Source: Acidithiobacillus thiooxidans ATCC 19377
GTDB lineage: Bacteria > Pseudomonadota > Gammaproteobacteria > Acidithiobacillales > Acidithiobacillaceae
Direction of reading: 5' to 3'
Assembly (NCBI RefSeq): GCF_009662475.1
Contig: NZ_CP045571.1
Span: 1,610,501-1,674,500 of the forward strand
Length of the DNA: 64,000 nt
The position numbers and the translations under genes were made by a program. Positions 25,996 to 63,103 of this stretch are shown in pieces. The notes below the pieces were generated by a model, which saw nothing but the letters and a program-made list of their open reading frames with translations, was not told the DNA's origin and searched no databases. The first letter of the stretch is position 1, and every line of letters starts with the position of its first letter.

Positions 25996-26144
25996 GGCGA
26001 AATACCTCCATATCCAGATTACCACGCACTTTTTGGCGTTATTTTTTTGTAAAAGCGGTTATTTGTAGGATTTTTTAAAAGCCCATCGATTGGAACATCT
26101 TTGGGCGAGACGCCTTGAGCAAGGGAAGGTCAGGCGTCTGTTGT

Positions 26145-26570
26145 CTAATTCCAGGTGATTTCTTTGGCTTTTTCCTGGGCAATGTAGTTGACGGCCTGTT
26201 TGGAAAGGACATTACTGTGCATTTTGTTGGCTGACACCGCTTTCACGTATTCGACCGCCTTCACATAAGCATCCATTTCCAGAGCCGGATGGCTGTTTTC
26301 GTTGAATTCTATTTTTGGATTGAACAGCACAGACACCAGCGCTTCTTCATCATTGCGCGGAATCGTCACAATAACCACTGCATTGATAGACTCCTTCTCA
26401 GGTGCCTTTTGATAACGCCAGGACTTGTGCGCAGCATAGATCATTTCATTAATGAGTTTATTGCCCGAATGAAATCCAGCCCCGGAAATCACCAAAGGCT
26501 TCCCCTGGTATGACGGTTTTTGGGCAGTGGATTCATGCTTATAAAAATGCCATTTGTTAATCTTACTCAT
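26145..26570 (-). CDS. Unknown ICE protein, 141 aa
   Basis: Start ATG at 26570, overlapping the end of the upstream membrane protein gene by 8 bp. Soluble, mixed alpha/beta; contains PLVISGAGFHSGNKLINEMI and NAVVIVTIPRNDEEALVSV. No family recognised. Co-translated with its upstream neighbour. Confidence 0.55.
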   Translation of the reverse strand: MSKINKWHFYKHESTAQKPSYQGKPLVISGAGFHSGNKLINEMIYAAHKSWRYQKAPEKESINAVVIVTIPRNDEEALVSVLFNPKIEFNENSHPALEMDAYVKAVEYVKAVSANKMHSNVLSKQAVNYIAQEKAKEITWN

Positions 26571-27282
26571 CCGAAACACCCATATCCTTATCCAAAGTCA
26601 GTCCATAAACAAAGGCCCATCCAGAAGATAGCACGGTCAATATTGCCAATACAACGATCATAGCCAGTGATTCCCAGGACTTAAAAAGGCTCGGCATATC
26701 ACTGACCCAAAACCAATACCCTCCCCCTACAATGATCCCTATTGACAACCACACGCGAAAAGTCAGCCGTTCCAGCATCTCCGAAGTCCACAGAATCATA
26801 TCCATGACGGCAATCTTTTGAGCCGAAAACATAATCGCGGATATGGCCGGCCAGAACAGGAAAAAGCCCACAATAATCAGCCCCAATACCAGAGGGAAAT
26901 TATCGCAAAACCGTAACCATAGACTATGTACTGCACCCGCCCCAGGATACATCCAGGCCTGATAGCTCTGCAGACTGTCCATTTGAATTAGTCCTGTTAG
27001 CAGGATGACCGGAGCAGAATAAAAGGCCAAGAGAATGAGTATGGGGCGCACATGACGCCGGACCCGTCCCCAGGTTTCCGCAAACGACCAGTGAAAATAC
27101 ACCTTGGCATACAGCACCCATAACGCGGGAATCCATAGAAACAAAATCCCAAAGAGCGCTATCCCCGGTAAAAAAGTGACGGCCAATAAGGTCAGGGTCA
27201 TCAGCAAAAAACAGGGGCTGCAGCGCCCAATCAGCGCAAAGGGCGCATACAAACTGCGTACATTAAAATCACGAGACAACAT
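26563..27282 (-). CDS. ICE polytopic membrane protein, 239 aa
   Basis: About six hydrophobic segments (for example FLLMTLTLLAVTFLPGIALF, ILILLAFYSAPVILLTGLI, LVLGLIIVGFFLFWPAI). AGGAGG precedes the ATG. It overlaps the upstream DUF6475 gene by 14 bp and the downstream gene by 8 bp, so the three form a tight operon. Function unknown. Confidence 0.6.
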   Translation of the reverse strand: MLSRDFNVRSLYAPFALIGRCSPCFLLMTLTLLAVTFLPGIALFGILFLWIPALWVLYAKVYFHWSFAETWGRVRRHVRPILILLAFYSAPVILLTGLIQMDSLQSYQAWMYPGAGAVHSLWLRFCDNFPLVLGLIIVGFFLFWPAISAIMFSAQKIAVMDMILWTSEMLERLTFRVWLSIGIIVGGGYWFWVSDMPSLFKSWESLAMIVVLAILTVLSSGWAFVYGLTLDKDMGVSDE

Positions 27283-27994
27283 ATTCGTCCTCCTTTTCCT
27301 TCTGCGATTTTTCGTTAGAATCCATCCAGGCTATTTTATCCACCTTCTTTTGGGTGACCGAGGGCACACTCTGAGCATTCAACAGCGCAAAAACCTGCTC
27401 CGCTTTTTCCCCATGTGTAATCACCTGCAGGCACAGTGCGCGGTCCCCCCAAAGTACCGGCGGATCCAGTGGAAAACTGGCGCTCCAGTTCTCTCCATTG
27501 GAGCGCCCGCGCAAGCTGGCCGGATACAACCCCGTGAGGCCGCGTGAGCGATAAGCGGTATATCGCGCCCGAAAATCATTCCCCACGAATGGCCATTTAT
27601 CCAGCGTGATTTCCCCAAAGTGAATCCATCCCCCCATATCCCGAATCACGGCATGCAGATAGGGGTCGTCAAACACAATATCCTGATAGGTCCCCACATG
27701 CTTCAAGGCCTCTTCCAGTTTGGTCCAGGCCAAAGCCGCATTATCCTTATGACCACCGTCCAGCAGCCGGATAAAATCTGCCACTTTCGGTAAATAAACC
27801 CCGGACTCCGTATGTGTCAAATGCACACCGATGACCCTTTTAATTTCACTCAGTGGATAGCCCCGTAAGGCTTGCCAGTAAAAATCCACCACCATGGGGC
27901 TGATGCCTCGATGATAATATTCACCCAAGGCCATCAGCATTTTGGTAAATTGCGCAAAATTTTCTTCGTACCCGATTTCTTCAGAGGGTTCCAT
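27269..27994 (-). CDS. DUF6475-type replication-module protein, 241 aa
   Basis: The N-terminal part FTKMLMALGEYYHRGISPM and FYWQALRGYPLSEIKRVIG, then YLPKVADFIRLL, match the DUF6475/phage replication accessory pattern. AAGGAGAGG stands 7 bp before the ATG. It follows the DUF1376 gene in the same direction, an arrangement like phage initiator and helicase-loader pairs. Exact function inferred. Confidence 0.65.
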   Translation of the reverse strand: MEPSEEIGYEENFAQFTKMLMALGEYYHRGISPMVVDFYWQALRGYPLSEIKRVIGVHLTHTESGVYLPKVADFIRLLDGGHKDNAALAWTKLEEALKHVGTYQDIVFDDPYLHAVIRDMGGWIHFGEITLDKWPFVGNDFRARYTAYRSRGLTGLYPASLRGRSNGENWSASFPLDPPVLWGDRALCLQVITHGEKAEQVFALLNAQSVPSVTQKKVDKIAWMDSNEKSQKEKEDEYVVS

Positions 27995-28116
27995 AAGGCC
28001 TCTCCTTTTCCATATCCAATAATAGCTATTTTACCATCCCGGTTGTGTGGCCAGACCGCACATTATCTTCCTGTGGAAAAACCCCGGGGAAAGCGTGTCG
28101 ATGTTAAAAATCCGCA

Positions 28117-30309
28117 TCAGCCATCAACAGGGGTTTTTGCGCCTTTGGATCGCATCCATTCCACCATGTTGACCGCGTTTCGCCTGCTGACTTTACTCAG
28201 ACCATTCAAGAACGCGGGATCTGCATCCTTACCATATATCTGCCTTAACGCCGCGTCTTCTTTCTGACGCTGTGCATCAATTGAGGCACTTGAAGAGCCA
28301 TTTTTATGGCCCGGCCTTTCGGACTCGGGAAGAATATCGTCCTCCCATCGGTTCCCGTTCAGATAGGTTTCCGGGTTGGGGATATAGCCATCTAACCACC
28401 GATAATCTTTTTTGAGACGTTCCGCAATATCGGCCAATATCACATCTGCTTTCTCGTCCAGCTTCCGCGCCTTCCACTTTTTTTCACAGACCTTTCTAGC
28501 AACCCTTTTGGGATAGGCTGCCCAGAACTCCGCAAAACGAGCGCCATTTTTGGCAGCCCGCGCCGGTAAAGCAGACTGGTCGGCATCGGCAGCCGCCTCG
28601 CCAGACGTGGAGGCTTCTGGAACCGTCTCCTGCGCCAAGACTTTTTTCTCCGTCCCATCCCCCAGCGCTTCGTGCACAGCACGCTCCAGGCGAGTATTCG
28701 GGGTGGGTGCGGCATCGGTTTCGGGGTCCTGCACGTCCACCGGTACTTCAGCAGCGGCGTCATCGACCTCATCCTGGTCTATCGACAGACCCGCCCTTTT
28801 CATGGACTCGAATAAAGCCCGCGCCGCTTCTTCGTCTCCAGGGGACATCTCTTCATTATCTTCCCTTCCCCAGGGCGCCTCATATGATTCCTGGGCATCA
28901 CCATCCAAAGGGGGCACCGGATCATTCGGGGCTACCGCATCCTCTGCAGCAGGAATGGAATCAGTGGCGGCACCCTCAAGCGGTTCATGGTCGCTCGAAC
29001 CGGCCAAGGCAACAGCACCATCATCGAGCGCAACAGTCTGCCCATCCTTTATAAAAAGATCCCACAGGGAGTCCTGTTCGTCGGAAGGCTCAACATCACT
29101 GGATGGTAACCCTGTGTCACCCATCGGCTCTGGGAGATTTTCGGGCACTGTTTCCTGCACGACTTCTTGCGCAGATTCGCGCGCCGAATTTTCAAAAAAT
29201 TTTTCACTTTGAAAAAAGTTTTTTTCATCAACCTGCACGGATGGTTCACCAACCGCGTCATGATGATTTTCCAAAACCGATTCGGGTGGCATCAATGCCG
29301 TGCAGGACTCGGTTTCATTCCATGGGATTTCCGAGACGGGTTCACAGTCGGTAATGGCACCATCCTGAGCGTAGCCATCCTGGAAAGGCAAATCCGTTTC
29401 AGGCGGCAAGGGCTTGTTTTCAGGCACCTTTGTTGAAGACTGTACCGCATCCCCTGGTAAGTTTGGGGTATCTGCCGTATCGGTGTAACGCGTTACATCC
29501 GGTGCTTCGTTACGCATTACATCACGCGTTACAGCGGCATTACGCTGTAACGCTGTAACGCCTTTAGGCGTTACAGCTTGGTTATATATATTCTCTCTCT
29601 CTATCTTTATCTGTATCTTATCTGATATTACAGCATTACTGTAACGCATTACGGTAACGCCATTTGTAACGCTGTAACGCGTTACATCGGGCGTTACATC
29701 AGGCATTACACGCATTACATCTGACCTTACTCCAGGTGTTACCGTGGGCCGTACTGCAGGGACAGATTGCTTGGATTGGGCATCTACCCCCGCCGCCTGC
29801 CCAGAGGCTGTCGCTTGCTCGGCGGCTTCCGCCCGGGCCTTGCGCCAGCGCTTGACCCGTTCACGATTCTTCCGGCGCCGCTCGGCGGCGGCATCCTCTT
29901 TCCCGTCCCGGAGGGCATGTTGGACACCCCCTTTACTCCCCTGCACTTCCAGCACCATTTCCGAAATGACCGGGTGATACAGGCGATCATTATTGCAGGG
30001 TATCCAGCCATACAAGGCCATGTCCCGCACCTTGTTCCAGCGGCGCGGTACATTGGCATAGCCTGCCAGAGAAGCAATAATCCGGTCATTGTTGGGCAAG
30101 CTGCCGGCTGGCACCTGTTGCATGGAAGCCATCCATAACTTCACGGCTGCACCAAACTCTTCATTATCCGCCAAATGGCGAAAGTCACTGCCTTGAAGTC
30201 GGCACATGTCCAGCTTCATCCAGCACAGACTGCGTAAGTCTACCGTATCGGGGAGCAAAGGCTCCCCGCAATCTCCCGTCAGGGCGGGTTTGCTTTTGAC
30301 AATAGGCAT
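28117..30309 (-). CDS. DUF1376-type replication initiator-like protein, 730 aa
   Basis: The N-terminus (about residues 20-125) is a DUF1376 domain: VDLRSLCWMKLDMCRLQGSD, AAVKLWMASMQQVPAGSLPN, YGWIPCNNDRLYHPVISE. A basic linker follows (about 145-165). Residues about 190-285 are made of repeats DVTRY, DVMR, GVT that are encoded by the iteron-like array described separately. A long acidic, low-complexity region (about 290-620) leads to a C-terminal domain (FAEFWAAYPKRVARKVCEKKW, YIPNPETYLNGNRWEDD) common in phage primosomal proteins. Likely replication initiation; origin inside the gene. Confidence 0.7.
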   Translation of the reverse strand: MPIVKSKPALTGDCGEPLLPDTVDLRSLCWMKLDMCRLQGSDFRHLADNEEFGAAVKLWMASMQQVPAGSLPNNDRIIASLAGYANVPRRWNKVRDMALYGWIPCNNDRLYHPVISEMVLEVQGSKGGVQHALRDGKEDAAAERRRKNRERVKRWRKARAEAAEQATASGQAAGVDAQSKQSVPAVRPTVTPGVRSDVMRVMPDVTPDVTRYSVTNGVTVMRYSNAVISDKIQIKIERENIYNQAVTPKGVTALQRNAAVTRDVMRNEAPDVTRYTDTADTPNLPGDAVQSSTKVPENKPLPPETDLPFQDGYAQDGAITDCEPVSEIPWNETESCTALMPPESVLENHHDAVGEPSVQVDEKNFFQSEKFFENSARESAQEVVQETVPENLPEPMGDTGLPSSDVEPSDEQDSLWDLFIKDGQTVALDDGAVALAGSSDHEPLEGAATDSIPAAEDAVAPNDPVPPLDGDAQESYEAPWGREDNEEMSPGDEEAARALFESMKRAGLSIDQDEVDDAAAEVPVDVQDPETDAAPTPNTRLERAVHEALGDGTEKKVLAQETVPEASTSGEAAADADQSALPARAAKNGARFAEFWAAYPKRVARKVCEKKWKARKLDEKADVILADIAERLKKDYRWLDGYIPNPETYLNGNRWEDDILPESERPGHKNGSSSASIDAQRQKEDAALRQIYGKDADPAFLNGLSKVSRRNAVNMVEWMRSKGAKTPVDG
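29484..29740. repeat. Iteron-like array with AT-rich centre, candidate replication origin
   Basis: About 15 copies of TGTAACG/CGTTACA-type heptamers, in both orientations, flank an AT-rich pyrimidine tract at 29578-29632 (TTATATATATTCTCTCTCT). The perfect 14-mer TGTAACGCGTTACA occurs at 29484-29497 and 29673-29686. The array lies inside the reading frame of the DUF1376 gene, which stays open. This layout recalls lambda ori inside gene O. Confidence 0.65.
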
Positions 30310-30688
30310 AAAATACTCTCCTGAAAAAATTTCGGGCTAAGAATAGAATACACTGCCATTTTTTCAGGATGCGTTTGTCGTCATAAACGATCTAATTTCG
30401 CGTTTATTTAAAAAGTGGATTTTTCGCCAGGGTGGTAGACGGCCGCTTTGTGGGGGAGCGGACCAATCTCGCCATTCAGAAGTTGGAGGCTTTGGAAGGA
30501 AAACATCGACCACACAGCGGCTGAGTCTTTGCAATGTTGCCTACAAATCGTTTCTTTCTTAAGCTGTCAGCCAGTTGCGATTGCCACCAGGGGCTACCTG
30601 GAACCATCGCCGCTCCCAACCCCCGTACCGGGCATCTGGCATTGCGCCATCCCGGACGTGGATGTGCGCGGAGGAAACTACAGAGAGC
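30310..30688. other. Gap before the DUF1640-like gene
   Basis: No firm gene. Plus-strand 30430-30523 reads as a possible protein tail (VVDGRFVGERTNLAIQKL ending in TGA) and may be a remnant. The divergent promoters for the DUF1376 gene and the coiled-coil gene should lie here but no strong -35/-10 pair was seen. Confidence 0.3.
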
Positions 30689-30928
30689 ATGGATACCTTA
30701 CGTTCCGAAGTAAATGTGACTGAAACCCAGGCTAAAGCCATTGCTAAAGCGGTGGGCGTAGCTCTTCACCAGAGTGTCGCCACACACGACGATATCAACG
30801 ATGTGAAAACCATAATTGGTACCGTTGACACACGCGTAACGCTCTTGGAAACCAAGATGGACGCTGGGTTTAAAAATCTGGAAACCAAGCTGAACGCGAA
30901 ATTGAAAATCCAGCAATTCTGGATTTAC
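30689..30928 (+). pseudogene. DUF1640-like coiled-coil protein, cut by TnpB element
   Basis: Starts at ATG 30689 (GAGAG upstream). Residues include TETQAKAIAKAVGVAL, ATHDDINDVKTIIGTVDTRVTLLE, a typical bacterial DUF1640/CCDC90-like coiled coil. The frame runs into the TnpB element after ...KIQQFWIY. The C-terminal membrane anchor normal for the family is missing. If the element is removed at its predicted ends the frame continues only about 8-9 codons, so the gene was short or already decayed. Confidence 0.6.
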
Positions 30929-31062
30929 CAAAAAGCGCGAAAAGCCCCGGCGTTCAGGCCGGGGATGGATAGCGCGGCGGCGAGACGGCTTAACGCCGTC
31001 GAAGCCGTCTGCCTAGCGATAAATTTTGCCAGCCAATGACTGAAGCTGTATAATTATACACC

Positions 31063-32271
31063 ATGCTGATTCGCAAAGCCGTGCGCTACCGTCTCGAAAC
31101 CACTCCGGAGCAGGAAAATCTTATGGCCCGTGCGGTCGGCTGCGTGCGCTTCGTCTGGAACCGGGCGCTGGCCGTGCAGAAGAGCTATCTCGATCATCAT
31201 TGCGGCACCCTGAATTATGCCGGCCTGTGCGAACTACTCACGTCTTGGCGCAATTCGGAAGCCTTTGGGTTTCTCGCAGAATCCCCGTCGATGCCGCAAC
31301 AGCAGACGCTCAGATATCTGACGCAGGCGTTGAAAGAGGCATTCAATAAGAACTCAGCTAAAAACTTCCCAAATTTCAAAAAGAAGTTCGTCCACGACAG
31401 CATGCGCTACCCGGAACCGGGCCATATTCACTTTGATCTGAATCCCGTTGATCGGGATGGCCGCAAGGTGCTCCCCAAAATCTTCCTGCCGCGTATTGGC
31501 TGGGTGAAATTTCGCAAATCCTGCATCATTGGCGGCGAAATCCGCAATGTCACCGTCAGCAGGGCTGGTGGTCACTGGTATGTCGCCATACAGACCGAAA
31601 AAGAAGTGCCGGACCCCGTGCATCCCTCCACTACAGCGGTCGGTGGCGACCGGGGAGTAGCAAACCTGCTTACATTGTCCGATGGCACCATGTTTCTGCC
31701 AGTAACCGCCTATCGGGATTTGGAGAAGAAACTAGCGCGGGAGCAAAGAAAGCTCGCGCACAAAGTGAAGTTTTCGGCCAACTGGAAGAAACAGAAGGCC
31801 AAAATCACGCGCTTGCACCAGCGTATCGCGGAAATACGGAAAAACGTGCTCCATCAGGTCAGCACCACCATCAGCAAAAACCACGCGGTCGTGGTGCTGG
31901 AAGACCTGAAAGTGCGGAACATGACGGCATCCGCAAAGGGTACCGTGGATAAACCCGGACGCAATATCCGGCAGAAATCAGGATTGAACAAATCCATCCT
32001 TGATCAGGGATGGGGCCTACTCAAACGGATACTGGACTACAAGCTCCAATGGGCCGGTGGCATGCTATTTTTGGTGAATCCGGCTTACACCTCGCAAACC
32101 TGTTCGGTTTGCGGGGTGGTGGATGCCGGGAATCGCCCCCATCAGGCGGTATTCCATTGCCTGCACTGTGGGCATGAAGCACATGCCGACGTGAATGCGG
32201 CACAGAACATCCTCGCAAGAGGGTTGCAGTCAACGGCGGGGCACGCCGGGGTAGCCTGTTCTCCAAAGTAG
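31063..32271 (+). CDS. tnpB: TnpB RNA-guided nuclease
   Basis: 402 aa. RuvC catalytic residues are all present: Asp196 (GGDRGVAN), Glu280 (VVVLEDLKVRNM) and Asp376 (HADVNAAQN). The zinc finger is CSVCG (347, 350) and CLHCG (366, 369). The N-terminal WED/REC part (LETTPEQENLMARAVGCVRF) is intact. TnpB proteins cut DNA guided by an RNA from the element's right end, next to a short target motif. Appears functional. Confidence 0.88.
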   Translation: MLIRKAVRYRLETTPEQENLMARAVGCVRFVWNRALAVQKSYLDHHCGTLNYAGLCELLTSWRNSEAFGFLAESPSMPQQQTLRYLTQALKEAFNKNSAKNFPNFKKKFVHDSMRYPEPGHIHFDLNPVDRDGRKVLPKIFLPRIGWVKFRKSCIIGGEIRNVTVSRAGGHWYVAIQTEKEVPDPVHPSTTAVGGDRGVANLLTLSDGTMFLPVTAYRDLEKKLAREQRKLAHKVKFSANWKKQKAKITRLHQRIAEIRKNVLHQVSTTISKNHAVVVLEDLKVRNMTASAKGTVDKPGRNIRQKSGLNKSILDQGWGLLKRILDYKLQWAGGMLFLVNPAYTSQTCSVCGVVDAGNRPHQAVFHCLHCGHEAHADVNAAQNILARGLQSTAGHAGVACSPK

Positions 32272-32346
32272 CGGAGAGAAGCGGCTGAGGTAGGGCCGCT
32301 GCTGGCAGGAAGGAATCCTCGTCCTTCAGGACGAGGAGGAAGTCAA
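32200..32346 (+). ncRNA. Predicted omega/reRNA at the right end of the TnpB element
   Basis: The 3' end of tnpB and the 75 bp after it are GC-rich and fold into several hairpins (for example GCGGC/GCCGC at 32281-32299 and TCCTCGTCC/GGACGAGGA at 32317-32338), as expected for the guide-RNA scaffold. The guide would start at 32347 (ATATCTACCAATCGC). Extent inferred from other TnpB systems. Confidence 0.5.
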
Positions 32347-32399
32347 ATATCTACCAATCGCTGGGTTTGGTAAAATAATCTGAGACAAGAAACAAGCCA

Positions 32400-32427
32400 A
32401 GCCGATGACCATTCATCGGCTTTTTTT
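32400..32427 (+). terminator. Rho-independent terminator
   Basis: GCCGATGA (32401-32408) pairs with TCATCGGC (32413-32420) across a CCAT loop, followed by seven T. It is the original terminator of the coiled-coil gene, displaced by the TnpB insertion. Confidence 0.85.
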
Positions 32428-32499
32428 CTGAGCCTTTTGGTTGCCAAAGCTGCCGAGCAACCAAATCCGATTAAACCCTTTTTTTTGTCAACCAGCCCT

Positions 32500-32560
32500 A
32501 ATGCAGGATGTGGCCACCAGAATCATTGTGCGTACGTGCCAGGCATCGGCTTTATCAACA
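32500..32560 (-). pseudogene. 3' fragment duplicated from the 432-aa gene
   Basis: Minus-strand reading CLARTHNDSGGHILH-stop parallels the end of the neighbouring gene, GLAHTHNGSGGQPLH-stop. Nucleotide similarity covers CCACCAGAAYCATTGTG. Only the tail of the copy is left. Confidence 0.5.
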
Positions 32561-32571
32561 GGAAGATCCGG

Positions 32572-32985
32572 TTATGAGTGACCATAGATTTTAAACGCAC
32601 GGTCAAGCCACACAACATAGAATGTTTCATCAAGCCGGTAACCAATCATTGGTTTCATTCCGGAAAAACGGAAAGCCAATACCTTACTGTCAGGCGTGAT
32701 TGCGTCTTTTCCGGGCGCCTTGATTTCCTCTAAGCTGATTGTTTCGCACCCGGATTTATGCCGATCTGTCTGCATTATTTGTGCCCATGTCATTTGTCCA
32801 AGCTTATAAAGCGTATCCGCAAGTGCTGCCTTCTCTTCGGTCTCGCATTCAAACACGCTATGGGATGATGACATCTTTTCAAAAGAAGATTTGGGATGAA
32901 GAGACTGTCTTGAGCCCTTTGAGGATCTTGGCGCTCTGATTCTGTCCCCCTCGTTACTCTGAGGGCGTTTGATGCGTTTTTGCAT
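32572..32985 (-). CDS. Toxin partner of a Panacea antitoxin (predicted)
   Basis: 137 aa, directly downstream of the Panacea-domain gene (2 bp gap). The core reads TWAQIMQTDRHKSGCETI, VLAFRFSGMKPMIGYRLDETFYVVWLD and KIYGH at the end, a pattern I associate with small toxins paired with Panacea antitoxins. The first about 40 residues are basic and low-complexity; the true start may be at the internal Met near residue 38. Toxic mode unknown. Confidence 0.55.
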   Translation of the reverse strand: MQKRIKRPQSNEGDRIRAPRSSKGSRQSLHPKSSFEKMSSSHSVFECETEEKAALADTLYKLGQMTWAQIMQTDRHKSGCETISLEEIKAPGKDAITPDSKVLAFRFSGMKPMIGYRLDETFYVVWLDRAFKIYGHS

Positions 32986-32987
32986 GG

Positions 32988-33428
32988 TTACGATATGCGT
33001 GTGGAAAAGTATGTCTTCAAGGAATCGTTGGAGATAGTAGTCCCAGGTGTAGAGTCATAGGCATTTTTCCAAGGATCCTCCTCGTGCGTCATATTGCGAA
33101 GCTTCCACGCAGAAAATTGGCCATAGACATTATAAACCTCGTTCAAAAAGTCCCGCGTTTCTTCAGAGAAGTCAGTAGGATCAAATCCTGATTGACCAGG
33201 AATAGCGCTTCCCCCATAGTTTTTGAATTCATGATAGACGTTTGGCACCACAGGTCCATGCGTCCAAGCCTCAATTTCATCCTCGAATAAGGGCACCCCG
33301 AAAACAGCCAGATGGAATCCCTGTGCATAATACAGAAGCTTTTGCAGCTTCAGATTTGACATGGTATCTCCCGCTTCCTCATCATCGAGAGAGAGGAAAT
33401 ACTTGGCAACCTCAAGCACTGGTGTCAT
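32988..33428 (-). CDS. Panacea-domain (SocA/DUF4065) antitoxin
   Basis: 146 aa. Family marks: LKLQKLLYYAQGFHLAVFG, PLFEDEIEAWTHGPVVPNVYHEFK, YGGSAIP. Panacea proteins neutralise many unrelated toxins, the gene normally sitting beside the toxin as here. GGAGG lies upstream of the ATG. Order antitoxin then toxin on the minus strand. Confidence 0.8.
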   Translation of the reverse strand: MTPVLEVAKYFLSLDDEEAGDTMSNLKLQKLLYYAQGFHLAVFGVPLFEDEIEAWTHGPVVPNVYHEFKNYGGSAIPGQSGFDPTDFSEETRDFLNEVYNVYGQFSAWKLRNMTHEEDPWKNAYDSTPGTTISNDSLKTYFSTRIS

Positions 33429-33577
33429 TACAAAACCTCCGCTTATTCAAGATACTATAGCCATCATTAGGGCCTGACTAATAGACGGATAGTACAGGGC
33501 CGTACTTTGACTGTAAATCACAAGCCTCTACTGGTGGTGCCGCATGTTGCCCTGACTCGCTCGCGCAAAACAAACCT

Positions 33578-34876
33578 TCAGTGTAAGGGCTGACCACCAG
33601 AACCATTGTGGGTATGCGCCAGGCCCTCATCCTCCTCAAAAAGGTTCGGGAAATATGGCTCCCCACAGTCCGAGCACTGCTCATCACCCAATAGCATTTC
33701 AGAGATGCGGATCTGATCTGGCGGCACGCCTATTTGCAGCAAAACATCCCGCACTGTTTGTATTTCCATATCGATATCCTGGCGGTTATTCCATACAAAG
33801 CCATCCACAAATTCGCCGTCCTGGACGATGCCAATGCGCAATTCAGAAACGCCATCCACCAGATAACACCCCACAGAGGCCTGAGTCGCCAACAATTTCT
33901 CCCGTATATTCTCTGGCGTATGGTCTGCCACGACGGTCATTATCAACCCGGTCATGTTGCGCAGGTCAAAGCCCGCATGAATCGCTTCCTGCCACCAGTC
34001 AGGCTTGCCTATGCGGGCGGCCATCACCCCGGGCAAATGCTGCGTCAGGATGTGCTCCACTTCTTCCTGCCAGGCCAACAATGAAGGATGGACTTCCGAC
34101 AATACCAGCGCATCGCTGTCGTCATCATCAAAATCATCCTCCCCAAAAAACCCACTCAGCAACGGGCTTTCGCGAATATCGCTGCCAAACGGGGAGAAAA
34201 CACCGACCATAGCAAAGCGTATCGCCGTGGTCACTTCGTCTTCGCCCAGAACGGTTTCTGAGGTATGGGCTGGGCGCACCATGCGGTTTTCCTGGCTCTG
34301 AAATCCATCCGCCATTTGCCGCACCACCGCACGTTGCCCGGATAGAGTGTCCGGTAAATCCGCATAGGCATACAGCCACGGACACAGGAAAACGGAGGTT
34401 GCCGGTCCGATAAGGTCATGCTGGTGCAAACTGGCCGCCAAGTCACTGAGCACGGATTGAGCGTCATCCATGGCACCCGGTATCTTGTCCGGGAGTGGCT
34501 GTCCCGGTTCGGAAATTAAAAACATCGGCACCAGCAAAAGCTCGACTTCCCCAAAAACCGCACCGTCCTTACCCTCAAAAATAACCGGCATGCAGGACGC
34601 CGCATTGTCGGCATGAAAAGCCACGTTTCCAGCCGCTTCTTCGAGACCCGCCTCATCCAGATCCTCAATGGCACGAAGCACCTGTTTTTCGGCGCCGGCA
34701 TCCAGGGCATCGGCAACCAGGTCCGACAAACGTGCTTCAGCGGCTATATGGGCATCCTCATCCTGCCCCGATGTTTTGTCGGCCAACCGCGCTGCAACAA
34801 AAATACGATGGGTCCAACTGGTAGCGGTTTTCGAACGCTTGCGCCGTTTGTTGGCCAAGTGACGCTTTTTACTCAT
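33578..34876 (-). CDS. Unknown ICE protein, 432 aa
   Basis: Basic N-terminus (KKRHLANKRRKRSK), then an acidic globular body. Pieces of note: an Asp-rich loop (EDDFDDDDSDAL), and a C-terminal CSDCGEPYFPN possible zinc hook followed by a His-rich tail. RBS AGGAGGAG. The tail of a second copy survives at 32.5 kb. Function unknown; the length and composition suggest a cytoplasmic protein, possibly DUF2863-like, but that is weak. Confidence 0.6.
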   Translation of the reverse strand: MSKKRHLANKRRKRSKTATSWTHRIFVAARLADKTSGQDEDAHIAAEARLSDLVADALDAGAEKQVLRAIEDLDEAGLEEAAGNVAFHADNAASCMPVIFEGKDGAVFGEVELLLVPMFLISEPGQPLPDKIPGAMDDAQSVLSDLAASLHQHDLIGPATSVFLCPWLYAYADLPDTLSGQRAVVRQMADGFQSQENRMVRPAHTSETVLGEDEVTTAIRFAMVGVFSPFGSDIRESPLLSGFFGEDDFDDDDSDALVLSEVHPSLLAWQEEVEHILTQHLPGVMAARIGKPDWWQEAIHAGFDLRNMTGLIMTVVADHTPENIREKLLATQASVGCYLVDGVSELRIGIVQDGEFVDGFVWNNRQDIDMEIQTVRDVLLQIGVPPDQIRISEMLLGDEQCSDCGEPYFPNLFEEDEGLAHTHNGSGGQPLH

Positions 34877-59172: not shown

Positions 59173-59586
59173 TCAGCTTTTGTGCGTTTTTTGCGTTTTT
59201 TGCGAAGGCTCACCCAAAGACTGCCCCAACTGCGCCATAGCCTTTCGTCGCGCCGGACTCAGCGCCCGCTTTGGGTCATGGGAAGCACCCGTCTCGGCAG
59301 CGCCATGGGCGGCAACAGATGTAGCCCCTGCTTCGCCCGCGTCCGGCTTTTCATGACCGTTTTCGGCATCCAGGTTGCTGGCCTGAACCGCCGCCAGGGA
59401 ACCGCGCCCCTGCAAGACCAGCAAACCCAGTTGCGCCAAAAACCGCAAACGCTCAGGACGCAACCGGGGTTCGGAAACAGCCTGTATATCTTTCAGTAAT
59501 TCCGGTTGCCTGGTACTGATAGTCACATCTATCCGTACAAAATCAGACAAAGCTTTGTGCTCCCAAATGCCAGAAGCCTTGCGCAT
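59173..59586 (-). CDS. ParR/StbB-like partition adaptor, up to 137 aa
   Basis: Core FVRIDVTISTRQPELLKDIQA then RLRPERLRFLAQLGLLVLQG resembles ParR/StbB DNA-binding adaptors. The C-terminal half is low-complexity and charged. The start is uncertain: the listed ATG overlaps parM by 44 bp. It follows parM, as in ParMR operons. Confidence 0.6.
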   Translation of the reverse strand: MRKASGIWEHKALSDFVRIDVTISTRQPELLKDIQAVSEPRLRPERLRFLAQLGLLVLQGRGSLAAVQASNLDAENGHEKPDAGEAGATSVAAHGAAETGASHDPKRALSPARRKAMAQLGQSLGEPSQKTQKTHKS

Positions 59587-60559
59587 TCGCCAGTTCTGGA
59601 TGATCTGCCATTAAAATTTGACTGTCCGGATATACCTCCTGAGCCATGGGGGTATATAGACGCGCGCCGCCACCTGCAAGAATGATAAAGTTGATGGGGT
59701 CGTCCACCTGCCGGAGCATGCCGCGCATTTCGCTCAGCGCCTCCCGCCCGACCATCTGGGCCGCCTGCTCAAAAACCGGCGGCAACACGACATCCTGATT
59801 GAAAATGTACAAGTGTTCCCGTCCGTTTTGCAGACAGTTTTCCAATTGCGCGACCGTCGGGGCCTTGCCATAGGTGTCTGCAATGATCTTCCGTGCTTCA
59901 CTCAACACTTGGGAAACGGCAAACAGACTGCTGCCAGACGCCAGAGCGGCATACCGACCACCGGCCCGAACCAACGTCCAATCCAGCGAGAAAAATCCCG
60001 GGTCCACCACCAGACTGGTTTCTTCTGCCAACCGATCCTGCACCGGCTCTGGGCACCAGCTGCCATTGATGGCATCCACATAGGCGCCGACAGGCTGCGG
60101 AACCACCTGAACCTGCCGGACTTCAATACTTCTTTTGGGCAGGACCGCATGCACCCCCTGCAGAACCTCTTTGAGCGCCTGACGGCGTTCGGGGTCTTCA
60201 TAATGCTGAACCGGCAGTCCGACAACCAGCCTATCGATGACCGTCTGGCCGGTCATCAAAATCCCCGCATAGGCCAGCGCAGTCCACGCATCACTCCCGA
60301 CATAGCCCTCATGGAGTTGTCGCGGCGCATGGCGCTGTACCGCATCCCCGGGCACACCCGCCATCCATGATTTTCCGTGCACCTGGACACGGATGCCGGT
60401 TTCGTTTTCCGTATCGGCCCCAAACAGGGAAGTCGCCACCAATTCGGCGGGCACCGCACAGGCCGGATAAATTTCGCAGACTGGCGCAGGGTCCAGTGCT
60501 TCCCCAAAGGCAATTTTCAGATTGCCGTACCCAATATCCATACCTGTCACAAAAGCCAT
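59543..60559 (-). CDS. parM: ParM/StbA-like actin-family ATPase, 338 aa
   Basis: Phosphate-1 loop GMDIGYGNLKIAFG with Asp7; later VVDPGFFSLDWTLVRAGG (phosphate 2) and NFIILAGGGARLYTPMA (adenosine loop). This is the actin-like fold of plasmid partition motors that push DNA copies apart. ICEs of the SXT kind carry a similar srpM-type system. AGGAG precedes the ATG. Divergent from traI. Confidence 0.85.
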   Translation of the reverse strand: MAFVTGMDIGYGNLKIAFGEALDPAPVCEIYPACAVPAELVATSLFGADTENETGIRVQVHGKSWMAGVPGDAVQRHAPRQLHEGYVGSDAWTALAYAGILMTGQTVIDRLVVGLPVQHYEDPERRQALKEVLQGVHAVLPKRSIEVRQVQVVPQPVGAYVDAINGSWCPEPVQDRLAEETSLVVDPGFFSLDWTLVRAGGRYAALASGSSLFAVSQVLSEARKIIADTYGKAPTVAQLENCLQNGREHLYIFNQDVVLPPVFEQAAQMVGREALSEMRGMLRQVDDPINFIILAGGGARLYTPMAQEVYPDSQILMADHPELANAQGFWHLGAQSFV

Positions 60560-60748: not shown

Positions 60749-63103
60749 ATGACCGACATGGAAAAACTCTGGTCAGAACGCATCTCGGAAAAATTCGCCG
60801 CACAATGGGATCGGTGGACAGGTCATCGTCGCTTCCCATGGGGTGCCCCTGACGCCCACGCGGCAGACGCGGGGCAGGCTTCTACCCCGCCGGGTCGAAA
60901 AGCACCCAAACCCGCCAAAGCCTCCCCCATCCCCGAAGACTGGAAACAACAGGTACTCACCGATGTGCCCGTTTATCCCCCTTTCCGGCAGGGGCTGCCC
61001 CTGCTGCCTGTGACCGATATTATCCAGTCACAGGCACGGCTCATTCGGGAAGTGTATGCTGCCGTAGGGGTTACTCCGGAATTCTGGAAACGGATTTATC
61101 TGCCTGCCATTCACAACTATGCCCACTATGTCCATTTATTGCCGGCCAGTGAAGGCAATCACCATCGCGGTGCAGGCGGGCTTTTTCGTCATGGGTTAGA
61201 GGCCTGCCTGTATGCCGTGCGGCTCACCGATGGTCAGGACAGCCTTGAAAAATCCGCCCATCTGCTGCACCCCACGGAACGGCGTCGGCACGAAGACGCC
61301 CTGCGCCTGGCCACATTTTGCGCCGCCCTGTTTCATGATATTGGCAAGCCCATGGTCGATATGCAGGTGTACGACCAGCAACAGGGCCACATCTGGAACC
61401 CGGCCCTATATCCTTCCCTCTATCGGTGGGGGCAAGAGACCCATGTGCAGTTCTACAACCTGCGCTGGCGTTCGGGGCGTATGGACCGCCATAAAAATCT
61501 GGGGATGGCCACTGCTCCGCATCTCATGACCCGGGACATTCTCGCGTTCTTGACGGATGTGGACGCCTATTGGGTGGAAACGGTTTTACGCGCCATTTCC
61601 GGTGATGAAATGGGTATCAACAAAGTCCGCGACTTTGCCACCTATGGCGATCGTGAATCCGTCCGTTATGACCTCAAAAATCAGGGCGGTGAAGGAAATG
61701 ATATCGGGATTCCGGTGGAACGCTATCTGCTGGATGCCATGCGTACCCTGGTGCGGGAACAGATATGGAAAGTCAATGAAAGTGGCGCCGTACTGTGGAC
61801 GACGCGTATCCCCAAAGAAGAGGTAGAACGGGAAATTGCCGCTGAAACACCGGTTATCGCACTGGTCTGGCCGAAAGCCGCTACCGATGTGGCCGGCTGG
61901 CTCCATCAACAGGGTACGCCCGGGATACCCAAGGATCCGCAAGTCATCGCGGATATGCTGCTCGACCGGGAGTTGGCCGTACCCAGTCGGGATGAAAGCG
62001 ACGGTCAGCAGCGGATTCCTTTCTGGTTTCTTTCTCCGGAAAACCAGGATGGCACAGGAAACCGGGAAACACTCGGGCAACGCGTCCTGGTACTGCGCCA
62101 TCCCGAATACCTGCTCGATATTGTCCCCCCCCTTTCTGCACGCAGTCTGTACAGCGTCCGCAAGGCCGATGCCCCGGCAGCCACATCCGTCTCTCCCGCA
62201 TCTCCTGCCCCTTCTGCATCTTCTGCAACTGTCACACCCGCCGCCAGACCCGCAGAAAAAAATACGACCGCACGGTCATCAGCCTCTGTGACCCCGACCG
62301 CTTCTCAGCCTGTGCCCGCTTCGCCACAACCACAACGGAAAACGGCCAGTCACCCCGTAGCACCGCCTCCCGTGGCAGAACCCCAGACGACAGCGAAGAC
62401 GTCCACCCCACACACGCAAGCCGCAACCGCCTCTCCAGAAGCGGGCCGCCAAGCGGACAAGGCCGTACAGGATGTACACACCGCCGACCGCACGGCACCC
62501 CCCTCTGCACGGGATGACCGTCAAATCAGTCTGGGCTTACGCATACTGCGTACCATCATTCGGGAAATTCTGATACAGCGCCGGGATGCCGCGATCCTTA
62601 TTCCCGGCGGAGAGGAAGCCGCCTATCTCCAGTTTCCAGAGGCATTTCGGGATATGGGTATGAAACCCATTGAAATGCTCGGCATCCTGAACGATGAACA
62701 CCTGTTGATACCCTCACCTGACAGCCCGGAAAAACTCACGCAAAAAAAGACCCTGCCCGGCCAAAGCAAGGAACGGACAGTGGTAGTGCTCTCTCCCACG
62801 GCCCTGAAAAAATTGCCTTGCCTGAAAATGCCGTTGAGTCTTTTCCCGAAAGAACAGCGCAGGACCTACCATCGCTACCTGATCGAACAGGCCCGGGACT
62901 ATTCAGCCGCCCAGTTTTCCGCCAACAAGGACACCCAAAAAGGCTACTGGTTTATCCCCCTGGAATGGGTCGTGGAAACCCTGTCCAGACAATTCCCGGA
63001 TGATCCCTGTCCAGAGCGGTTTTTGCGGGAATGCACCATTGGACCGGGCGGCTCTGAGGGCGGCGGTCTGTTGTTGCGGCTGGATAGCGACTTACCCAGC
63101 TAA
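60749..63103 (+). CDS. traI: MobH-family relaxase TraI
   Basis: 784 aa. The HD-type relaxase core is clear: HHRGAGGLFRHGLEACLYAV (about 138-157), LFHDIGKPMVD (about 195-205) and YLPAIHNYAHYVHLLP. A long Ala/Pro/Thr-rich linker (about 470-590) leads to a C-terminal domain (TraI_2_C; DMGMKPIEMLGIL, LPCLKMPLSLFPKEQRR). MobH relaxases nick oriT to start conjugation. Upstream 190 bp separate it from parM. Confidence 0.9.
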   Translation: MTDMEKLWSERISEKFAAQWDRWTGHRRFPWGAPDAHAADAGQASTPPGRKAPKPAKASPIPEDWKQQVLTDVPVYPPFRQGLPLLPVTDIIQSQARLIREVYAAVGVTPEFWKRIYLPAIHNYAHYVHLLPASEGNHHRGAGGLFRHGLEACLYAVRLTDGQDSLEKSAHLLHPTERRRHEDALRLATFCAALFHDIGKPMVDMQVYDQQQGHIWNPALYPSLYRWGQETHVQFYNLRWRSGRMDRHKNLGMATAPHLMTRDILAFLTDVDAYWVETVLRAISGDEMGINKVRDFATYGDRESVRYDLKNQGGEGNDIGIPVERYLLDAMRTLVREQIWKVNESGAVLWTTRIPKEEVEREIAAETPVIALVWPKAATDVAGWLHQQGTPGIPKDPQVIADMLLDRELAVPSRDESDGQQRIPFWFLSPENQDGTGNRETLGQRVLVLRHPEYLLDIVPPLSARSLYSVRKADAPAATSVSPASPAPSASSATVTPAARPAEKNTTARSSASVTPTASQPVPASPQPQRKTASHPVAPPPVAEPQTTAKTSTPHTQAATASPEAGRQADKAVQDVHTADRTAPPSARDDRQISLGLRILRTIIREILIQRRDAAILIPGGEEAAYLQFPEAFRDMGMKPIEMLGILNDEHLLIPSPDSPEKLTQKKTLPGQSKERTVVVLSPTALKKLPCLKMPLSLFPKEQRRTYHRYLIEQARDYSAAQFSANKDTQKGYWFIPLEWVVETLSRQFPDDPCPERFLRECTIGPGGSEGGGLLLRLDSDLPS

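Follow-up and report, generated by a model that had tools for sequence, protein, structure and literature searches.

A candidate lambda O/P-like replicon whose origin would lie within a DUF1376-type initiator gene near conjugation genes of Acidithiobacillus thiooxidans

We analysed a 64,000-nucleotide stretch of the 3.4-Mb chromosome of Acidithiobacillus thiooxidans ATCC 19377 (contig NZ_CP045571.1, positions 1,610,501 to 1,674,500; hereafter the window, whose coordinates we use unless chromosome positions are given) and find that two adjacent genes on its minus strand appear to form a lambda O/P-like replicon with the replication origin embedded in the initiator gene, a reading to which we assign a probability of about 78%. 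The first gene (28117–30309) encodes a 730-amino-acid protein with a DUF1376-type N-terminal domain, a linker whose coding sequence carries the presumed iterons, a long acidic region (by eye), and a C-terminal replication-protein domain. The second (27269–27994) directly follows it on the same strand and encodes a DUF6475 protein (PF20081, 1.7e-26), presumably a lambda P-like loader of the DnaB helicase.

Embedded origins are known from phage lambda and RepA_N plasmids, and some genes of the DUF1376 family are already annotated as encoding replication proteins. What appears to be new, within the open-licence papers searched, is an embedded origin across the DUF1376 family, the reading of DUF6475 as a loader, and the use of such a module near conjugation genes; we found no report there of an origin in DUF1376/YdaU genes, and likewise nothing on DUF6475. 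If the reading is correct, DUF1376 and DUF6475 become an initiator with an embedded origin and a probable helicase loader, and with these roles assigned, sequence alone could be enough to locate the origin in many temperate phages and mobile elements. A conjugative element may then have a phage-type origin as a starting point for replication besides oriT, and the near-identical iteron pairs would be usable in tests of the evolution of replicon specificity and incompatibility.

A heptamer array flanks an AT-rich tract inside the initiator gene

An earlier note on this DNA had proposed an origin at 29484–29740, with about 15 TGTAACG/CGTTACA heptamers around an AT-rich pyrimidine tract of about 55 bp. 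Counting both strands, the exact heptamer occurs 16 times in the window, against a mean of 4.05 and a maximum of 8 in dinucleotide shuffles of the whole window. Eleven of these copies lie between 29484 and 29698, all within the minus-strand open reading frame (ORF) 28117–30309, as the note had stated, at mid-gene some 610–830 nt past the start codon. The figure of about 15 holds only if degenerate copies are counted (TGTAAYG occurs 14 times and GTAAYG 19 times in codons 191–280). Same-orientation TGTAACG...GTAACG pairs spaced 2–8 bases apart number 14 genome-wide and are found only here and in one SbcD-like gene.

In the presumed origin (29484–29740), iterons stand on both sides of the strand-biased tract. 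The array begins with the palindromic iteron pair TGTAACGCGTTACA (29484–29497), followed by a minus-strand TGTAACG (29527–29533) and by three further copies (29546–29552 and 29554–29560 on the plus strand, 29569–29575 on the minus strand), the last two of which form an inverted repeat. The tract itself (29580–29629), presumably the unwinding element, is 72% A+T, with pyrimidines on the plus strand and purines on the coding strand (75–78% purine in two 40-bp windows within it); it is AT-rich as first proposed, though nearer 50 than 55 bp long. Beyond it lie a plus-strand iteron (29640–29646) and four more (29665–29671 and 29673–29679 on the plus strand, 29680–29686 and 29692–29698 on the minus strand), which include a second perfect copy of TGTAACGCGTTACA at 29673–29686.

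The inverted repeat at 29552–29577 has 12-bp arms; its two iterons drawn as a hairpin, followed by a T-rich plus strand, scored as terminator-like, which may be incidental. A promoter scan returned 2 promoters where 3.0 were expected, Rfam gave no match in 26000–34000, and the window holds 11 DnaA boxes compared with 4.7 expected.

The repeats are kept as DNA and not as peptide

On the coding strand the 11 sites are read as Val-Thr five times, as Arg-Tyr three times, as Leu-Gln once, and as Val-Thr through GTT ACA twice; the DVTRY and DVMR peptides to which the earlier note assigned the repeats are correct but do not cover all of these readings. When codons 191–280 were recoded synonymously with local codon usage, TGTAACG appeared 0.37 times on average and at most 4 times, and none of 5000 trials reached 11. 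Val is encoded by GTA in 11 of 14 linker codons versus 8 of 44 in the remainder of the gene, and inverted 7-mer pairs number 25 in the linker where 6.5 are expected (p = 0.002). As these computations show, what is preserved is a DNA word, present in either orientation and in more than one frame, and not a peptide.

The heptamers might instead have arisen incidentally, from a disordered linker with a repetitive peptide (DVTP/DVTR) that spread by DNA duplication. The linker does contain low-complexity Val-Thr repeats, and the array in the SbcD-like gene (11 copies in one orientation and one frame) resembles such an expansion. In the initiator gene, however, a single DNA word occurs in both orientations, and because it is read in four strand and frame ways, peptide selection and simple duplication are both inadequate; the recoding trials never reach the observed count. 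Moreover, in counterparts of a paralogous gene described below, iteron codons are frozen while the remaining codons diverge, and across that group the inverted DNA repeats are still present in a peptide that has wholly changed (ETF). We consider a peptide by-product very improbable, and the peptide-repeat explanation was rejected on recoding, multi-frame reading and codon freezing. Peptide repeats without DNA repeats, which the earlier note had named as grounds for abandoning the origin, were not found among the genus relatives, where peptides change and inverted DNA repeats stay.

The SbcD-like phosphoesterase gene (chromosome 1719931–1721541) lies outside the window, about 81 kb away, and has an SbcC-like gene further on. 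Its 11 TGTAACG words sit mostly in a 12-bp tandem repeat (chromosome 1721304–1721424) coding for (PDVT)n in one orientation and frame, with GTA as 13 of 14 Val codons. From its sequence, this array may be an expanded copy of a linker piece, or a titration site.

Codons are frozen inside the repeats of a paralog

Elsewhere on the chromosome, from position 546825 onward, another DUF1376 gene (L002) keeps the layout with the repeats TGAAACG/CGTTTCA. Its region (chromosome 543312–547778), which is outside the window, adjoins a tRNA-Pro gene and an integrase gene. Repeat conservation was measured in this paralog, as no close ortholog of the window gene was found in the 57 genomes searched. L002 and its six genus counterparts (L006–L010 and L016) contain 7–11 CGTTTCA/TGAAACG words in three or four strand and frame classes, and these surround a peptide stretch coded by purines; a further relative, L012, has 10 CGTAACG words. 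Repeat counts in the L002 group and in L012 all lie above the maxima of 300 synonymous recodings. In this genus test, L019–L021 yielded no ORF.

Comparison of the distant counterpart L008, from another species, with L002 at codons for identical amino acids revealed that 22 of 22 codons inside iterons are identical, versus 94 of 193 elsewhere (counted from the L002 side, 23 of 24 versus 93 of 191). The contrast remains, at 22/22 versus 22/41 (p = 8e-5), when codons elsewhere are counted only for the amino acids that the iteron codons specify. It is weaker in the closer pair L016 and L002 (27/28 versus 82/107), where 819 of 20000 amino-acid-matched simulations reached it.

Linker repeats and purine tracts recur across the DUF1376 family

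We surveyed the family through genome and viral scans and four phage records, which gave 121 loci (L038–L158); the viral scan behind this set kept 80 of 521 confirmed loci, and a second viral scan kept 80 of 454. Filtering removed 3 short and 36 near-duplicate loci, and the 82 remaining genes together with the window gene and E. coli YdaU made a set of 84. Inverted linker repeats exceed synonymous recoding (p ≤ 0.01) in 26 of these 84 genes versus 19 of 635 control segments (Fisher 5.7e-15). The test has moderate power, because lambda O, a known origin and our positive control, scores p = 0.011 in its linker (0.54 in its C-terminal part, and 0.12 for lambda P; the codon table of this control includes one gene in duplicate). 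A blind whole-gene test of the top 7-mer is weak, with 25 of 82 genes positive compared with 9 of 280 controls; among these nine, L063 has 11 copies of the same word, probably through overlap with the array. Other repeat words in the family are TGTCCC/GGGACA and, by eye, TTCCGGCGGAA and GTCACGCGTGAC.

With genes under 700–740 nt excluded (82 of 84 used in the strand-bias test and 80 of 82 in the tract test), the most strand-biased 36-bp stretch falls at nt 400–700 in 72 of 82 genes (expectation, about 30%), and the purines are on the coding strand in all 72. AGR is enriched in the tracts (68/92 versus 240/2359), a raw figure that is partly circular because the tract was picked for purines; with control genes searched alike, the counts are 67/89 versus 33/249. 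In 46 of 80 genes the tract scores above synonymous recodings of itself (p ≤ 0.05), and in 34 it does not. At L041, L063, L097 and L157 the purine tract is a G-rich GGGACA/GGGAGA tandem beside the repeats, possibly able to form a G-quadruplex on the coding strand.

Gene neighbourhoods add to this picture. In phage phi297 a DUF1376-type gene stands two genes after a cII-like gene and directly upstream of DnaB, and in phage Hali it stands directly upstream of a helicase loader and a helicase. The ydaU gene of the E. coli Rac prophage, a DUF1376 member, scores p = 0.024 in the inverted-pair test and adjoins ydaV. Rac has an active origin, oriJ (PMC3945230; oriJ is reported in PMC11014345 too), whose place relative to ydaU we did not find there. 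PMC7760358 assigns no function to a prophage YdaU protein and places its gene directly before a helicase or helicase-loader gene, and DUF1376 is named in PMC5795418. Among the 20 of 58 phage records listed, most family members are annotated as 'hypothetical protein' and a few as 'replication protein' or 'primosomal protein'. All 72 aligned members match PF07120 at E ≤ 1. A hidden design with the origin in the gene seems, from sequence, to recur across a large phage protein family labelled 'unknown function'.

Initiator domains and a probable helicase loader

The N-terminus of the 730-amino-acid protein strongly matches phrog_22470, 'replication protein' (1.4e-31). Its match to PF07120 (DUF1376) has an E value of 9.2e-6 and 26.4–29.4 bits, under the cut-off of 30.1, and a genome-wide search for the DUF1376 family reported only the paralog and not the window protein. 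The AlphaFold2 model of the N-terminal domain (29860–30309, minus strand; 72 sequences) is helical with a short two-stranded wing and a long C-terminal helix, at a predicted local distance difference test score (pLDDT) of 89.8. From the order of elements in this model we read the domain as a winged helix and presume that it binds the iterons. A fold search of BFVD gave 6 matches at E ≤ 0.001, with DUF1376 proteins among the named ones. At the other end of the protein, the C-terminus matches phrog_9474 and phrog_270, 'replication initiation protein'; this domain (28243–28632, minus strand; phrog_9474, residues 560–684) is common to other phage replication proteins and presumably contacts the loader. 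Its homolog at L020 is 38% identical and adjoins a DUF6475 gene.

For the DUF6475 protein, a model from 56 sequences (pLDDT 84.9) has as its top Foldseek match in the Protein Data Bank (PDB) lambda P in the DnaB–P complex (E 0.014, probability 0.93). VIA likewise ranks lambda P first, with Z 6.5 and a root-mean-square deviation of 7.5 over 142 residues; the next chain, which is unrelated, scores 5.6. Although the window protein itself matches only phrog_10105, whose function is unannotated, 31 of 56 DUF6475 relatives match phrog_2289, 'helicase loader'. A homolog in Shewanella phage X14, 22% identical, is annotated as replication protein P, and a circular record from Marinobacter has 'replication protein O' immediately before DUF6475. 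An ORF ends near the DUF6475 start at 81 of 83 loci (the other 2 have no upstream ORF), and many of these ORFs have, by eye, a DUF1376-like or other helix-turn-helix-like N-terminal domain. DUF6475 is, on these models and matches, probably a helicase loader.

One relative bears on how the parts might be combined. In genome G014 (L164:311–2200), a homologous C-terminal domain (38% identical) and a DUF6475 protein (49%) accompany an N-terminal domain that does not match that of our query. The linker there has, by eye, CAATTG-like repeats and a purine tract, and is not significant in the inverted-pair test (p = 0.20). A modular machine, in which N-domain and iterons supply specificity and C-domain and loader supply DnaB, fits the retention of C-domain and DUF6475 beside a different N-domain in G014.

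We envisage that the winged-helix N-domain, as a dimer or a larger oligomer, would bind the palindromic or semi-palindromic TGTAACG iterons, and that the resulting complex would melt the AT-rich tract. The C-terminal domain would dock the DUF6475 protein; DnaB of the host would thereby be loaded onto the open strands and theta replication could start. The linker peptide would serve mainly as a spacer, tolerating whatever the DNA signal dictates. N-domain and cognate iterons would travel as one block that sets the specificity of the replicon, and the module could let the excised circle of a conjugative element replicate.

Weighing the embedded origin

A number of results weigh against this embedded-origin reading. 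The window gene has no close ortholog in the 57 genomes searched, its own included, and its most purine-rich stretch is C-terminal (28449–28484) and not the linker tract. No DnaA-box consensus lies inside 29484–29740, and GC skew, which the earlier note had suggested as a check, shows no switch at the array and is uninformative as an origin marker. In the genus set, L011, L013 and L017 are within the recoding maxima; across the family, 58 of 84 genes miss p ≤ 0.01 singly, and in two of the four phage records, Magia (with a RusA-like neighbour) and Alize (with a hypothetical one), no helicase or loader stands next door. Excess inverted pairs are a weaker signal in genes upstream of DUF6475 (10 of 62 dereplicated genes of at least 180 amino acids, versus 10 of 424 controls), and the inverted-pair signal is not universal, since four circular plasmid records gave mixed p values (0.052, 0.014, 0.515 and 0.629, one of them ≤ 0.05).

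Further points of the same kind come from the domain comparisons. For the DUF6475 model, Foldseek finds nothing in the PDB at E ≤ 0.001 (the best Z being 6.5), and hhalign against lambda P gives a probability of 0.3%, with no sequence similarity. For the N-domain, hhalign against lambda O gives 0.04%, the Pfam matches include no lambda O family, and Foldseek again finds nothing in the PDB at E ≤ 0.001. The VIA matches are weak, the best four of 320 aligned chains being 4pql (Z 5.0), 5kbj (4.8), 4pt7 (4.6) and 4pta (4.1). Their titles speak of a DNA-binding N-domain, a Rep–DNA complex and an initiator; 4PTA and 4PT7 are staphylococcal RepA_N initiators (PMC7145576, in part), and from the titles and the same aligned range we infer the same for 4pql and 5kbj. 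Kinship of the modelled DUF1376 domain to these chains cannot be claimed at such low Z, and Pfam RepA_N (PF06970) matches none of 72 members at E ≤ 1.

The array could also serve another purpose, as an autoregulatory operator or a centromere-like partition site, with replication starting elsewhere. Repressors and partition proteins also use clustered palindromic sites; the window has a ParM-like gene, a ParB gene is nearby, a ParA-like gene precedes the DUF1376-type gene of phi297 by about 2.7 kb, and the heptamer forms another array some 81 kb off. Yet the array is mid-gene, some 610–830 nt after the start codon, and not at the promoter, it encloses an AT-rich, strand-biased tract, a strand-biased tract is found again at nt 400–700 in 72 of 82 family genes, and the replication-type gene that holds it adjoins a loader-like gene. 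We therefore regard an operator or partition site as distinctly unlikely.

The proposal of an origin within a DUF1376-type replication gene, in the layout of lambda O, thus draws support from DNA-level selection, relatives, context and domain models. Extending it, we tentatively suggest that DUF1376-type genes might constitute a large class of replicons, each self-contained, with the winged-helix domain and the palindromic iterons that it recognizes passed on and exchanged as one intragenic block, and with many mutually compatible specificities across phages, phage-plasmids and conjugative elements. Under this more doubtful proposal, replicons using TGTAACG and TGAAACG, one base apart, would coexist here, and the SbcD-like array could titrate the initiator and set copy number.

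The module lies in a putative conjugative element

The window encodes a MobH-family relaxase (60749–63103, plus strand; TraI_2; NF041494, 2.1e-86), and a CagE_TrbE_VirB/TraG-like (VirB4-like) ATPase lies to the right of the initiator (L032:10387–12888). The relaxase and type IV secretion ATPase of an integrative and conjugative element (ICE) are both present. The ParM gene that the earlier note had invoked was found as a ParM-like actin homolog at 59543–60559 (minus strand), next to a small gene that could encode ParR; the ParB gene is in the neighbourhood (L035, chromosome 1743628–1745283). By eye, we noticed no phage structural genes among window ORFs of at least 150 amino acids.

Such an element may replicate in another way. 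Passages of PMC4489591 describe SXT/R391 ICEs as replicating by TraI at oriT, and by analogy relaxase-driven replication of this style is the main alternative for the element; the phage-type origin would then be a captured one, once functional and now idle, with any replication of the element starting from oriT. The MobH relaxase, the TnpB gene adjoining the initiator, and the GC skew without a switch all fit this account. However, the reading frames of the initiator and DUF6475 genes are both intact, and eleven repeats are still exact where decay would be expected to blur them, and we judge an idle origin unlikely, if less so than a regulatory or partition site.

Integrase-family genes are found at the left end of the window and immediately outside it. 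To the right, a tRNA-Lys gene (chromosome 1772539) has after it a short ORF that by eye resembles an integrase but has no match in Pfam, and about 34 bp of the tRNA-Lys 3' end are repeated at 1802116, 29.6 kb further on; the sequence suggests a possible separate island to the right and not a clear element end. In the region, two TnpB genes, at 31063–32271 (upstream of the initiator) and at chromosome 1717687–1718910, have near-identical N-termini, and a SocA/Panacea-type antitoxin-like gene (32988–33428) has a small downstream ORF (32572–32985) that could be its partner.

Comparison with known systems

The gene pair resembles lambda O/P in its order, an initiator gene followed on the same strand by an inferred loader gene, in the predicted fold of the DUF6475 protein, which resembles lambda P, and in the placement of its repeats, presumed iterons, which adjoin an AT-rich tract with a purine bias inside the initiator gene. 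In lambda O, four annotated iterons at nt 349–433 of the gene are followed by a 36-bp stretch that is 81% AT and 78% purine, and iterons with an AT-rich tract inside the initiator gene have been described for lambdoid phages (PMC7466680). Unlike lambda, which has four 18-bp iterons on one side, the window gene has its tract flanked left and right by short heptamers in both orientations; it also differs from lambda O in its C-terminal domain, its long acidic region and the conjugation genes nearby.

RepA_N plasmids of the pSK41 type offer a second parallel. Passages of PMC5703833 describe an origin within the rep gene that is bound by a winged-helix N-domain, a linker in the middle and a partner-specific C-domain, which in pSK41 binds DnaG, as well as a natural swap of N-domain and origin as one block in pPR9. 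The window gene would share this modular plan, with repeats and tract, the predicted origin, within the gene; here a loader-like gene follows the initiator. Closest in its N-domain is the DUF1376/YdaU family of E. coli Rac and of Pseudomonas, Xanthomonas and Burkholderia phages, which differs from the window gene in its repeat words and resembles it in the linker repeats and purine tract of many members and in the helicase, loader or ATPase gene that comes next in some.

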